Below are positions 1,773 through 46,097 of a stretch of 64,000 nucleotides of DNA, piece after piece (within the stretch, counting starts at the first letter, position 1; each line of letters opens with the position of its first letter). Origin of the DNA: Mycolicibacterium sp. (GTDB taxonomy: Bacteria > Actinomycetota > Actinomycetes > Mycobacteriales > Mycobacteriaceae); assembly GCA_020637165.1 (NCBI GenBank), contig JACJWN010000008.1, positions 186,001-250,000 on the forward strand, written 5' to 3'. A program made the translations under genes and the position numbers. The notes beneath the pieces were generated by a model, which saw only the letters and a list, made by a program, of their open reading frames with translations, was not told the DNA's origin and did not search any database.

Positions 1773-2777
1773 GTGACGCTTGCCGGGCGCACCCGCCCGC
1801 GTATTGCCGGGTCGATGCAACTCCTTTTCGCAGGTCTGATTGGGCTGGCCTTGTTCGCCGGCACTGTCCGTGCTTTCTTGGTGGGTCGGCCGGACCTGGC
1901 GAAAGCTGCCACGGTGTTCTGCGGCGTCTTTGTCCAAGCGTTGCCCTTCCTGGCTTTCGGCGTGGTGATCAGCGGCTTGATCGCGACGTATCTCTCCCCG
2001 GACCGTCTGGCTCGCTGGCTGCCAAGGCGGACGGGCGTGGCGATCCTGACCGCCGGGGTCGGAGGCGCGGCCTTGCCGGGCTGCGAGTGCGGAGCAGTTC
2101 CGGCGGCACGCAGGTTGTTCGGTGACGGCCGGTCGAGGGATCGGCAGGGCGCGGCCGCCTTGACCTTCATGCTCGCCGCTCCGGCGATCAATCCGGTGGT
2201 CCTGGTGTCGACGGCTGTGGCCTTCCCGGGCGAGCCGGTCATGGTCGGCGCCCGGTTTACCGCTTCGCTGCTGACGGCCCTCACCATGGGCCTTATGTGG
2301 TCACGGTGGGGCCGCGCCGAATGGATCACCCGGCGCCTGCCGCGACCGCCGCACAGCGGCGGGTCGAAGTGGACCGTGTTCAGCGAGGCGGCGCGCCACG
2401 ACTTTCTCCAAGCCGCGTCTTATCTGGTCCTGGGTGCTGCCACCGCTGCCGCACTGAACGTGCTGATGCCACCGACGGTGTATGAACACCTCGCGGGCCA
2501 ACTGCTGCTCGGCATCCTCACGATGGCGATATTGGCCTTCGTCCTGGCGCTGTGCTCGGAGGCCGACGCCTTCGTGGCCGCGAGCCTGACCATGTTGCCG
2601 TTGCTGCCGCGGCTGGTGTTTCTGGTCGTGGGACCCGCGGTAGACGCGAAGCTGCTCGCGATGCAAGCGGGCGTGTTCGGCCGCCCATTCGCCAGCCGGT
2701 TCGCCCCGGCCACGTTCGTCGTCGCCACGGTGGTCGCCACGGTAGTTGGCCTGTTCTTCCTGGGAGGTGCCCGGTGA
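1773..2777 (+). CDS. YraQ/UPF0718-type permease
   Basis: A 334-residue integral membrane protein of the permease family that includes YraQ (DUF318). Family marks are the cysteine pair in LPGCECGAVPAARR near residue 100 and LCSEADAFVAAS in the last third. The actual function of the family is not settled; proposals include metal or metal-ligand transport. It lies 86 bp after the ABC permease and its stop overlaps the GTG of the next gene (GTGA). A permease next to a TIGR03943 protein and a zinc importer is a recurring actinobacterial arrangement, which supports a zinc role. The GTG at 1773 is used here; an ATG at 1815 (MQLLFAG) would remove a 14-residue basic tail and is a fair alternative. Confidence 0.8.
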   Translation: MTLAGRTRPRIAGSMQLLFAGLIGLALFAGTVRAFLVGRPDLAKAATVFCGVFVQALPFLAFGVVISGLIATYLSPDRLARWLPRRTGVAILTAGVGGAALPGCECGAVPAARRLFGDGRSRDRQGAAALTFMLAAPAINPVVLVSTAVAFPGEPVMVGARFTASLLTALTMGLMWSRWGRAEWITRRLPRPPHSGGSKWTVFSEAARHDFLQAASYLVLGAATAAALNVLMPPTVYEHLAGQLLLGILTMAILAFVLALCSEADAFVAASLTMLPLLPRLVFLVVGPAVDAKLLAMQAGVFGRPFASRFAPATFVVATVVATVVGLFFLGGAR

Positions 2778-3508
2778 GCCGGACCACCGAGAACGTGATC
2801 CTGTTCCTATTAGGTACCTGCATTGCCGCCATCGTGGTCACCGGTACCTTCACCCGGTACGTCAAGCCCGCCCTCATGCCGTGGTTGGCCGCCACCGCCG
2901 TGTTGCTCGTGGTGCTGGCACTGTCCGCGGCCATCCGGGATGTCCGGGCCCGCGGAGGCCGTGGAGACGATGTCGATCAGCCCGACGGCGATCTCGAACA
3001 CGCGCACCGGTCCGTGGTGGTGTGGTTGCTGGTGCTGCCCGTTGCGTTGCTGGGCTTCGTGGTCCCGCCGGCGCTGGGCGCGCGGGCCGCCGCGCCCGCG
3101 ACCACCGGATCACCACGTCTGGCGATGTTGCGTCCCTTTCCGCCGTTGCCTGCCAGTCGCGCCCCGGAGCTTGCGCTTCCGGAGGTGGTGGTCCGCGCAA
3201 ATCGGGACTCGGCCTACACCCTTGAGGATCGGCTCATCACCGTCACCGGCTTCACCATCAAGGAGGGCGACGGAGTCGATCTGGGGAGGGTCGTCATCAT
3301 CTGCTGTGCCGCCGATGGACAGCTGGCTCGGCTCCATCTCGGGGGGCCAGCTGCGGCGACAGCGGCCGCCTTTCCGGAGGAGACCTGGCTGCGGGTGGAG
3401 GGTACCGTGGTCCCTAAACCCTCCGATATCGCCGGGTTGCCGACCCCGACTTTGACGGTCTCAGCGGTGACACCCATCGAGGCGCCCCAGAACCCCTACG
3501 CGTACTGA
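2774..3508 (+). CDS. TIGR03943 family membrane-anchored protein
   Basis: A 244-residue protein with three N-terminal hydrophobic segments (about residues 7-30, 36-56, 76-98) and a C-terminal extracytoplasmic domain. It matches the TIGR03943/YcgQ family, the usual partner of YraQ-type permeases. A vicinal Cys-Cys lies in VVIICCAADGQ. The start is the GTG at 2774, which overlaps the stop of the permease; the frame stays open further upstream, but that part lies inside the permease gene. Known: the family co-occurs with YraQ permeases and Zur/CobW loci, and its biochemical role is undetermined. Inferred: it forms a two-component metal-handling complex with the upstream permease. Confidence 0.8.
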   Translation: MSRTTENVILFLLGTCIAAIVVTGTFTRYVKPALMPWLAATAVLLVVLALSAAIRDVRARGGRGDDVDQPDGDLEHAHRSVVVWLLVLPVALLGFVVPPALGARAAAPATTGSPRLAMLRPFPPLPASRAPELALPEVVVRANRDSAYTLEDRLITVTGFTIKEGDGVDLGRVVIICCAADGQLARLHLGGPAAATAAAFPEETWLRVEGTVVPKPSDIAGLPTPTLTVSAVTPIEAPQNPYAY

Positions 3509-5549: not shown

Positions 5550-5755
5550 CAAGGCGCGTCCGGGAATCGAAGTAGTGCGAGCAGTCAGCGCACGGCGAGA
5601 GGGAACCCGGTGGGAATCCGGGACTGTCCCGCAGCGGTATGCAGGAACGAACGCCGTCATCAGCACTGACCCTGTTGGGGTTGGGAAGCGACGGTCATTA
5701 GGTACACCCGGGAGGGTGTGGGCCTGCGAGTCCGAAGACCTGCCAATCGTGCCGG
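5550..5755 (+). promoter_or_regulatory. Cobalamin (adenosylcobalamin) riboswitch
   Basis: The region carries the diagnostic blocks of a B12 riboswitch in order: the core GGGAACCCGGTGGGAATCC followed by CTGTCCCGCAGCGGT at about 5600-5640, a peripheral hairpin region, and the B12-box sequence GAGTCCGAAGACCTGCC ending at 5744. It sits about 115 bases upstream of a cbiM-like start codon on the same strand. Known: such elements shut off expression when the coenzyme is abundant and typically control cobalt or B12 uptake and synthesis. Boundaries are approximate. A GC-rich stretch between the aptamer and the gene may contain the expression platform. Confidence 0.92.
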
Positions 5756-5860
5756 GTGCGCCGCGCCCGGCGGCACATCGCCCCGTGGGATGGGCGCACA
5801 GCCGAATGGGTGTGCGTCCTTGGGCGATGGGCCATCGGTTTCGCCCCGAAGGAAATGAAC

Positions 5861-6538
5861 ATGCACATCGAACCCGGGATCGTTGAAGGTCCCAAGATCA
5901 TCCTCGGCTACCTCACTTCCGGCGGAGCCGGTCTGTACGCGCTGCGATCAGCCTTTAAGTTGGTCAAAAAGTGCGGCATCGTGCCGGTGCTGTTCCGCAG
6001 TCTGGCGACGACTGCGTTGGTGTTCACTTTCTTCCAGGTGTTTCCTCATGTGCACGTCGGTATTTCCGAAGTGCACCTGATCCTCGGATCGACACTGTTC
6101 CTGCTGTTCGGCATGGCGCCGGCGGCGATCGGATTGGCTACGGGCCTGCTGCTGCAGGGGTTGTTCTTCGCCCCGTTCGATCTTCCGCAGTACGGAATGA
6201 ACGTCACCACGTTGCTGGTGCCGCTGTTCGCACTGCAGTACGTCGCCGGGCGAGTCATCGGTGCGAACACCCCGTACGCGCAGCTGCGTTACCGGCAGGC
6301 CCTGGCGTTATCGACGAGCTATCAGGCGGGCATCGTCACCTGGGTGGGATTCTGGGCGCTCTACGGTGAAGGGTTCAACGTCCAGACCGTGCAGAGCATC
6401 GCAGCATTCGGCGCGGCCTACCTGACCGTGATCGCTATCGAGCCCTTGGCTGATCTCACCGTCCTGGCCGCGGCCAAGAGTCTGCAGCAGTTCAAGGAGA
6501 GCTCGCTGTTGAACAGGCGACTGCTCAACTCGGCCTGA
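5861..6538 (+). CDS. cbiM: CbiM-like energy-coupling permease (cobalt/nickel S component)
   Basis: A 225-residue membrane protein starting MHIEPGIVEG; CbiM proteins carry a conserved MHI-x-x-G N-terminus whose His takes part in metal binding. About six hydrophobic segments follow, with the family stretch VHLILGSTLFLLFGMAPAAIGL in the middle. The start at 5861 is chosen because it restores the MHI terminus and has AAGGA seven bases upstream; an ATG two codons earlier is too close to that site. A cobalamin riboswitch precedes it, so cobalt uptake for B12 is the natural role. No cbiN, cbiQ or cbiO is in the window, so energising partners must be encoded elsewhere or it works alone. Confidence 0.85.
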   Translation: MHIEPGIVEGPKIILGYLTSGGAGLYALRSAFKLVKKCGIVPVLFRSLATTALVFTFFQVFPHVHVGISEVHLILGSTLFLLFGMAPAAIGLATGLLLQGLFFAPFDLPQYGMNVTTLLVPLFALQYVAGRVIGANTPYAQLRYRQALALSTSYQAGIVTWVGFWALYGEGFNVQTVQSIAAFGAAYLTVIAIEPLADLTVLAAAKSLQQFKESSLLNRRLLNSA

Positions 6539-44722: not shown

Positions 44723-45292
44723 TCAACCGTGCCTGAACGCACCGTCCTGGCCGGTAGCGGTGCCCAAATGGTCCAGAACCGTCTCGACGCGCTCCTCGAG
44801 CGATCCGCGTACGGCCAGCACCGGAAGCTCGGGATGCTCGGCGAAGATCGCCGCGAGGATCTGCTGGGACCGGGACCTGGCGTGTGAGCCGTCGCGCTGC
44901 GGTTCGGGTTGCCAGGGAAAGTCGTCCTGGCACCACACCACCCGATCGCTCTGCGTCGTCCACCGCAGGGCCGTCGGCAGCAGGGAGGTGTCGTCGTAGT
45001 ACTGGATGCTGTACACAGCGGTCATCAGCGGTCCGCTGTCGGAGACCACCCACGAACGCGGGTTCCGACTCTCCCGCCGCAAGGCAGACGCCTCCGACTC
45101 CCGGTGTGCCGACATGATGGTGACCTGCTCGGCTGCCAGCGGGACCCGCCCGTGGCGATCGACCCAGCTCCGGAGGAACTCCGGTACGACCGTCGCGGGC
45201 AGCCGATCCCCGAGCGCGGTGGCCAGTGTCGACTTGCCGGTGGACTCCCCGCCGACTACCGAGATCAGCCGTGCGCGGTCCGGCTCAGGCAC
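44723..45292 (-). CDS. NadR-like AAA_28 family nucleoside/vitamin kinase
   Basis: A 189-residue P-loop protein similar to the ribosylnicotinamide-kinase domain of NadR but without its HTH or adenylyltransferase parts. The Walker A is VVGGESTGKST; the acidic metal-binding stretch is WVVSDSGPLMTAVYSIQYYDD; a C-terminal Arg-containing lid follows. The N-terminus overlaps the PnuC-like gene by 8 bp. In the classical pair, PnuC brings in nicotinamide riboside and this kinase traps it. The TPP-like riboswitch upstream makes thiamine (or a precursor) an alternative substrate for both. Confidence 0.82.
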   Translation of the reverse strand: MPEPDRARLISVVGGESTGKSTLATALGDRLPATVVPEFLRSWVDRHGRVPLAAEQVTIMSAHRESEASALRRESRNPRSWVVSDSGPLMTAVYSIQYYDDTSLLPTALRWTTQSDRVVWCQDDFPWQPEPQRDGSHARSRSQQILAAIFAEHPELPVLAVRGSLEERVETVLDHLGTATGQDGAFRHG

Positions 45293-45887
45293 GGGCGGTC
45301 GCCGTCAGGGTGGGGCCGTCGGCACGTGCGGACCAGGCGCGCCAGCCGGTGACCGCTATGACGACGAGTACCGCGTAGAACGACGAGGTGAAGTAGAGGC
45401 CCTGGCTGGCGTAGAGAATCGTGCCAACCGTGTTGACCGCGATCCACACCGGCCAGGCTTCGACCTTCTGCAGCACCATGAGCAGCTGCCCAGCCAGCGA
45501 TCCCACCAGCATAAAGGCATCACCCCAGGTCGCGACCCCACCGATGGCGCGAAGCAGGGGAGCCACCAGCGCCCACAGTGCGAAGGCCGCGACCACACCG
45601 CGCACTCGCCCGGTCGGGGTCAGCCGGCCCGGAATTCGGACACCTTCCTGACCCCAGGAGAACCAGCCCCAGACCGCGGCAGCCATGAAGATCAGTTGCA
45701 TGGCGGCGGAAGCGAATAGGTCGAACTCCACGAACAGCCAACCGTAGAACACGCTCGAGAGGAAGTACGGCGGCCAGGCCCACCGGGTTCCCTTGATGCT
45801 GAGCCCGATGGCGATGAAGGCCAGGATTACCGAGGCGGCCTCGATGGCGGTGAGGTCATAACCCCATACCGTGAACAGAACAGACAT
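45285..45887 (-). CDS. PnuC family vitamin transporter (PnuC or PnuT)
   Basis: A 200-residue, seven-segment PnuC-family transporter (YFLSSVFYGWLFVEFDLFASAAMQ in the middle; the substrate-site W-x-x-W type motif GWFSWG follows). PnuC proteins facilitate diffusion of a nucleoside-like vitamin that is trapped by phosphorylation: PnuC takes nicotinamide riboside, PnuT thiamine. The preceding TPP-riboswitch-like leader argues for thiamine. It is co-translated with the kinase gene downstream. Confidence 0.85.
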   Translation of the reverse strand: MSVLFTVWGYDLTAIEAASVILAFIAIGLSIKGTRWAWPPYFLSSVFYGWLFVEFDLFASAAMQLIFMAAAVWGWFSWGQEGVRIPGRLTPTGRVRGVVAAFALWALVAPLLRAIGGVATWGDAFMLVGSLAGQLLMVLQKVEAWPVWIAVNTVGTILYASQGLYFTSSFYAVLVVIAVTGWRAWSARADGPTLTATARA

Positions 45888-45892
45888 TGTGA

Positions 45893-45990
45893 ACGCTCCC
45901 TGCCCGGCATTACCCGGACGGTCATGCGGTCGGCGGCGCGGTGTGCCACCTTCTCAGACCGGTTGCCCCGGCCTCCCGCGGTTGTTTCTT
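45893..45990 (-). promoter_or_regulatory. TPP riboswitch-like element upstream of the pnuC-like gene
   Basis: On the minus strand the leader holds the main parts of a THI element in order: GCGGGAG, a P3 hairpin GCCGGGGCAACCGG, the invariant pyrimidine-sensing CTGAGA, an extra P3a hairpin GGTGGC...GCCGCC, the P2 return strand ACCGC, then the P4/P5 block CCGGGTAATGCCGG and the 3' CAGGGA. The P2 pair GCGG/CCGC closes. The J2/4 strand that is usually ACCTGAT reads shorter (ACCGT), a deviation close to the pyrophosphate site. The 3' end lies 6 bases from the start codon, so control of translation start is likely. Confidence 0.75.
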
Positions 45991-46097
45991 CCGCACGCCA
46001 GGCTATCGCCTCGGAAGCCTCGACTCGGCCCCGGTTCGATATCGGCCGAACGCCGGCTGGCCCAGGCGTCGGGCGCAGCCGCTTTCGGTCACCGGCA

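Follow-up and report, generated by a model that had tools for sequence, protein, structure and literature searches.

A 96-nt leader RNA on the minus strand (45890..45985) of the window, by which we mean the whole 64,000-nt stretch of Mycolicibacterium sp. DNA analysed here, is a real, conserved, THI-derived RNA. It lies immediately 5′ of the ATG at 45887 (-) that starts the gene of a PnuC-family transporter, with the gene of a NadR-like kinase overlapping the transporter gene's end. We consider it likely that, whatever the ligand may be, a translational OFF riboswitch of mycobacterial TPP-riboswitch descent runs a thiamine uptake-and-trap operon at this locus. Homology, conservation, a changed binding pocket, gene order and gene inventory provide the evidence, and from these we infer translational control, the substrate of the transporter and the reaction of the kinase. 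That PnuC and PnuT transporters are THI-regulated is already known.

The element was assessed against the Rfam model RF00059 (TPP), the leaders of related loci and a variant model, R1, built from the window leader and 22 relatives' leaders. The whole of RF00059 (1-105) aligns to 45879-45989 (-) at 34.7 bits, with E-values of 1.5e-5 for a 201-base stretch and 6.9e-5 for the whole genome, in which the leader is the sole RF00059 match at E <= 0.001. A preliminary description of this DNA had recognised the CTGAGA sensor (45957-45952), P2, P3, P3a, P4/P5 and CAGGGA, all of which were found on the minus strand as described; its placing of the leader beside a PnuC-family and a NadR-like kinase gene was borne out by matches to PF04973 and AAA_28. 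It had also treated a score below the Rfam threshold as speaking against the element, and, taken literally, this applies, since the full-length alignment stays about 20 bits short of the gathering score of 54.3. This failure is outweighed by the leader's conservation, with all but one of 23 close relatives carrying it, and by the contrast that R1 draws within the window, where the leader, itself a training sequence, reaches 117.6 bits and the next-best place 13.3. The leader probably works like a TPP riboswitch, yet we would not class it as a true TPP riboswitch, since neither its score nor its pocket fits that family. A larger Rfam run, with weaker E-values, reported RF00059 for L055, L063 and L064 and not for the likewise leader-bearing L056 and L061. 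The folding energy of the whole leader is ordinary for its composition (z -0.99), that of the P4-P5 hairpin somewhat unusual (z -2.57). Elsewhere in the window, at 5565-5761 (+), a cobalamin riboswitch (RF00174, 79.7 bits) is found just 5′ of an ORF (5756-6538) whose translation looks like that of a hydrophobic membrane protein.

Conservation of the leader was assessed across contigs encoding a downstream PnuC-like protein, a scan that returned 24 loci, 23 at 66-97% protein identity and one at 37%. The leader is present in 22 of the 23 close relatives of the gene pair and missing from L066, a natural leaderless copy in which a reading frame upstream of 5001 appears to reach almost to the pair's ATG. 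The window and the 22 relatives give 23 aligned leaders; the 96-nt stretches of the window and L077 are identical. Mean pairwise identity is 98.7% from P4 through the GGGAG ahead of the start codon and 92.5% over the core (columns 7-90), compared with 64.1% at the third codon positions of pnuC. The codon comparison comprises the window and 22 relatives, with L066 in and L077 out, as the L077 assembly has a broken pnuC frame. Standard pairs fill 96.5% of the cells of P2, P3, P3a and P4-P5, against 24-44% in slid controls. Two-sided changes affect a single pair, in P3a, and 319 of 500 shuffles yield as many; no shuffle attains the covariation score. A 3-bp P1 is unsupported, being paired in 42.4% of cells, and this helix is nearly absent. 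In canonical TPP riboswitches, P1 is the helix stabilised by the ligand. As regards provenance, 20 of the 23 relatives carry record titles naming Mycobacterium, Mycolicibacterium, Mycobacteriaceae or unspecified Actinobacteria MAGs. L064, L069 and L072 are titled Bifidobacterium breve, but these loci align well with the others, and with 73-76% PnuC identity and a mycobacterial leader the titles look wrong.

The binding pockets of the leader have fared differently. According to passages of PMC3764141, the TPP aptamer grips the pyrimidine through U39-A43 (J3/2) and holds the pyrophosphate at U59, G60, C77, G78 and A80, and C77 and G78 are also named at the pyrophosphate in part of PMC7824784. 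The UGAGA of J3/2 (45952..45956, minus strand), whose role as the pyrimidine-binding loop is taken from these two sources (PMC3764141, PMC7824784), shows no variation across the 23 leaders. The departure from canonical elements sits in P4 and J5/4, where U59 and C77 are absent. By alignment and fold, the P4-P5 arm (45899..45921, minus strand) reads CC GU CCGG (GUAAUG) CCGG GC A GG and constitutes a remodelled pyrophosphate pocket. Relative to the canonical mycobacterial element of L169 (GAACCUGUCCGGGUAAUGCCGGCGUAGGG), the variant (GACCGUCCGGGUAAUGCCGGGCAGGG) lacks U59 in its 5′ strand and, in its 3′ strand, one of the two bases of the CG step; base 79 is C or U, base 78 is paired and either G or A (A in L055 and L062), and G60 and A80 retain counterparts. 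Bases 59-62 and 77-79 can be aligned in more than one register, but each of these leaves P4-P5 a base shorter per strand than in L169 and without the CG step. This C77-G78 step is seen in none of the 23 variant leaders and in all 59 canonical elements inspected, the latter being fetched loci, mostly top-scoring matches, so that the sample leans canonical; the parsing pattern seeks CG first, and the parsed strings were checked by eye. A canonical/THI-type element in L049 (2050-2139, plus strand), oriented away from its pnuC gene, has UG where the canonical elements have CG, i.e. a U in place of C77.

In the predicted fold, CC-GU-CCGG pairs with CCGG-GC-GG around one bulged A; with U59 and the C77-G78 step missing, P4 and P5 therefore form a nearly continuous helix. 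Two natural pair changes fit this fold. The stronger support comes from L055 and L062, in which U-G has become U-A, whereas the G-C to G-U change of L064 and L070 counts as weak because the short hairpin of L064 (U79) prefers G60 unpaired. The preliminary description had located the change elsewhere, in a J2/4 strand said to be two or three bases shorter than consensus. J2/4 is in fact 4 nt long, one under the Rfam consensus and inside the canonical range: it reads AUGA in the variant and AGAA, of equal length, in L169, and it measures 4 nt in all 23 variants and 4, 5 and 6 nt in 17, 17 and 1, respectively, of the 35 canonical elements (out of 59) that could be parsed. With its length normal, J2/4 shortening was rejected as part of the pocket loss, and the suggestion of a shifted ligand preference passes from J2/4 to the pyrophosphate residues U59, C77 and G78, which every one of the 23 leaders has lost or altered.

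In a sample of 101 genomes from the family, RF00059 itself matches 100, and 91 have a match above the cut-off. R1 matches 292 of 297 Mycobacterium genomes, so widely because it also recognises canonical elements, and its scores are bimodal, with 13 genomes at 101-118 bits and the next at 64.9; the scan used strict filters, by which weak matches may be lost. The 13 high-scoring genomes measure 1.9-4.0 Mb, and some are apparently the same MAGs as the relatives from the PnuC search. Five genomes without an R1 match (G684, G739, G754, G756 and G804; 2.2-4.5 Mb, 55-100% complete) are perhaps further thiamine auxotrophs. A generic pocket pattern, run over a 396-genome sample of the phylum and over viral contigs, matched one of the 396 genomes, the window's own; a match in the viral contig L189, which has no RF00059 match at E 0.01, looks like chance. 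A PnuC homologue is found in 52 of the 151 genomes searched from the family and in 20 of the 396 from the phylum; both counts include the window's genome, and the best non-self identity in these tables is 41%. The variant model found the variant in none of 54 PnuC loci (L003-L054, L066 and L078), a set smaller than the full list of family and phylum PnuC matches; four further R1 matches at 12-14 bits were dismissed as noise. Canonical THI elements with variant-like flanks (GCGGGAG, GGGUGGC, GACCGC) are present in L171, L172, L173, L176 and L180, and this type is a possible parent of the variant judging by these shared motifs.

The two genes under the leader form a compact unit. The first (45285..45887, minus strand; PF04973, E 4.7e-37) encodes a clear member of the PnuC family and fold: it matches PnuC 4qtn by profile (E 6.8e-7), and its predicted structure (pLDDT 83.9) aligns with 4qtn in Foldseek at a TM of 0.79. 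It is probably a PnuT, i.e. a thiamine transporter. The second gene (44723..45292, minus strand; AAA_28, E 4.7e-20), whose first 8 nt lie within the end of pnuC, encodes a NadR-kinase-like P-loop kinase and probable thiamine kinase. Its profile match to NadR 1lw7 has an E-value of 1e-4, and its model (pLDDT 86.9) has NadR 8x7f as the top Foldseek match (TM 0.75; 1lw7, TM 0.72), with thymidylate, deoxynucleoside and many other P-loop kinases close behind. Against TIGR01526, whose cut-off of 341 is set for a two-domain protein, it scores 37.7 bits through the profile's kinase part only, and domain and family profile searches reported no adenylyltransferase domain in it. Both genes occur together in 23 of 23 relatives and in L078. 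In the latter, a contig titled Burkholderiales, the pair (2207-3287, plus strand; PnuC 37%, kinase 43%) sits behind enolase-like and FtsB-like ORFs, named by reading, and the locus gave no variant-model match.

What the pair may handle can be approached through the genes that surround it in the genome. The window's genome (94.3% complete) has matches for thiL, thiD and nadA and none for thiC or thiE, a pattern that favours thiamine as the substrate. Across 24 genomes (the window's and 23 others), thiC is matched in 2 and thus missing in 22, the widest loss; thiE is matched in 12, thiD in 21 (20 above the cut-off), thiL in 24 (21 above the cut-off) and nadA in 21, the window's included. These genomes are MAGs, with completeness known for the window's only, and gene absences may therefore be gaps; the inventory covered these five genes, none of them for a thiamine kinase such as ThiM, ThiK or ThiN. 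RF00059 matches of at least 47 bits occur in 8 of the 24 genomes, all of them thiE-bearing, and of the 12 genomes without thiE none has a canonical-scoring THI element and 11 have an RF00059 match in the variant range. Seven genomes carry both the variant leader and a canonical element (G533, G538, G540, G546, G547, G552 and G553), the last of which looks like a mixed bin. For 8 of the 12 canonical elements in this set of genomes, the next gene is of ThiD type (3), ThiO type (4; DAO family, with TIGR02352 checked for one) or ThiC (1). Without ThiE, the thiamine monophosphate (TMP) consumed by ThiL would have to come from thiamine and a kinase, which argues for the NadR-like protein being a thiamine kinase. 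Most likely, then, the pair imports and phosphorylates thiamine and not nicotinamide riboside, as the preliminary description had proposed; the THI-derived leader and the gene inventory speak for this, the substrates themselves are deduced and the element stays under the gathering score. On sequence grounds, the thiamine role of leader and gene pair is well supported.

Expression signals flanking the aptamer suggest how control might be exerted. A TAGCCT (46000..46005, minus strand) fits a −10 box of the form TANNNT and may belong to the leader promoter; this motif lies 19-30 nt 5′ of P2 in 21 of 23 leaders, the nearest in L061 and L071 being at 43 nt. At the other end, GGGAG (45896..45900, minus strand) is by its spacing to the ATG the likely Shine-Dalgarno sequence, its first two G's are paired in P4, and it is found 7-10 nt 5′ of the ATG in all 23 leaders. 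This spacing leaves no room for a terminator ahead of the start codon, and since P1 is nearly absent and the Shine-Dalgarno sequence shares bases with P4, a ligand-stabilised P4 would be expected to hide it. Transcription would start shortly downstream of the −10 box, and the leader would fold into a two-arm aptamer of TPP type, in which the pyrimidine grip is retained and the pyrophosphate pocket has collapsed into the nearly continuous P4-P5 helix. Bound ligand would keep P4 closed and, through the overlap with the Shine-Dalgarno sequence, lower translation of the PnuT-like transporter and the overlapping kinase gene. The transporter would admit thiamine, the NadR-like kinase would convert it to TMP and ThiL would convert TMP to TPP, in mycobacterial hosts of a lineage that appears to have lost thiamine synthesis genes.

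The ligand itself allows several readings. In the literature, canonical RNA is given as binding thiamine at 50 µM and TPP at 50 nM (PMC4112796), a difference that indicates the size of the normal phosphate contribution, and phosphate contacts are described in parts of two papers as essential for affinity and switching (PMC7824784, PMC4112796). The loss or change of U59, C77 and G78 in all 23 leaders lends weight to the suspicion of an altered ligand, and a change of ligand is plausible from this pattern. Thiamine or TMP as the preferred ligand is a strong candidate that we stop short of calling probable, and we tentatively propose that a riboswitch class has arisen from the TPP riboswitch through dismantling of the pocket and may now sense thiamine or TMP, the substrate or product of its own operon's kinase. 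That the ligand is still TPP is likewise a serious possibility, held here without conviction; another ligand, or none, is unlikely. With TPP as the ligand, the leader would be an ordinary sensor that has drifted within tolerance, with an altered arrangement of Mg2+ and phosphate and with feedback like that on other THI-regulated pnuT genes, a reading we regard as credible though not as established. The retained UGAGA, L5 and overall fold, the counterparts of G60 and A80, the published THI-controlled pnuC and pnuT genes and the canonical-type L049 element, which likewise departs at position 77, all agree with it. It is harder to square with a CG step that all 59 canonical elements inspected have and none of the 23 variants has, with the phosphate contacts deemed essential in the papers cited (PMC7824784, PMC4112796), with an A at base 78 in L055 and L062 and with canonical and variant elements side by side in seven genomes, G553 perhaps being a mixed bin.

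Two further readings concern what is imported. If the pair salvaged nicotinamide riboside, as PnuC with a NadR-type kinase might, the leader would be a relic or an NAD-related sensor; the top NCBIfam and structure matches do bear nicotinamide riboside names, but the window's genome is one of 21 (of 24) with a nadA match, the kinase has no reported adenylyltransferase domain and the leader is RF00059-homologous and strongly conserved, all of which make this reading very improbable. Import of the precursor HMP, with an RNA sensing HMP or its phosphates, would agree with thiC, stated to serve HMP synthesis in PMC4112796, being the most widely missing gene (22 of 24 genomes without a match) and with thiD in 21 of 24. 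However, 12 of the 24 genomes, the window's among them, have no thiE match, which would make the step from HMP to thiamine impossible; ThiD already phosphorylates HMP, and in other mycobacteria a CytX-like putative HMP transporter stands under a canonical element (L171). We therefore give HMP import hardly any credence. The preferred reading, a translational riboswitch over a thiamine uptake-and-trap operon, has points against it as well: L066 retains the pair without the leader, the gathering score is not reached, P1 is nearly absent and covariation is modest.

The locus matters beyond its own operon. A lineage with replaced phosphate contacts and, in some of the same genomes, canonical copies makes ligand switching testable on an RNA of ~100 nt; a pair of PnuC and NadR-like kinase gains a thiamine reading where annotation would say NAD salvage; and thiamine dependence is indicated for an uncultured group of mycobacteria. 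In the open-licence literature, we found no description of this pocket or of a thiamine kinase beside PnuC; such a TPP variant may be in print elsewhere.

Among known systems, the closest in gene content are the THI-regulated pnuT-tnr3 of Bacteroides (PMC5613172) and the THI-regulated pnuC genes of Helicobacter pylori (PMC2258182) and of acI freshwater actinobacteria (PMC5301498), which, as far as these sources describe them, share with our locus a PnuC-family transporter under a THI-type element. Here, however, the partner is NadR-kinase-like and not tnr3, and the element is a variant; the pockets of those systems lie outside the comparison. With the ribosylnicotinamide kinase domain of NadR, our kinase shares the P-loop kinase fold (TM 0.75), but it consists of the kinase domain alone, its sequence similarity is weak and the genome context points to thiamine. 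The HMP-PP riboswitch (thiS motif, PMC6478431) is reported to sense a thiamine-pathway compound other than TPP, as our leader might, yet it is described as a different RNA, a terminator-embedded aptamer. The nearest relative of the leader remains the TPP riboswitch (RF00059), of what is stated to be the most abundant single riboswitch class in bacteria (PMC10043782): the two have in common the UGAGA loop, P2/P3/P3a, P4-P5 with L5 and a site ahead of thiamine-type genes, and the variant differs in its missing U59 and C77, a paired G or A at base 78, a nearly absent P1 and a score 20 bits below gathering.
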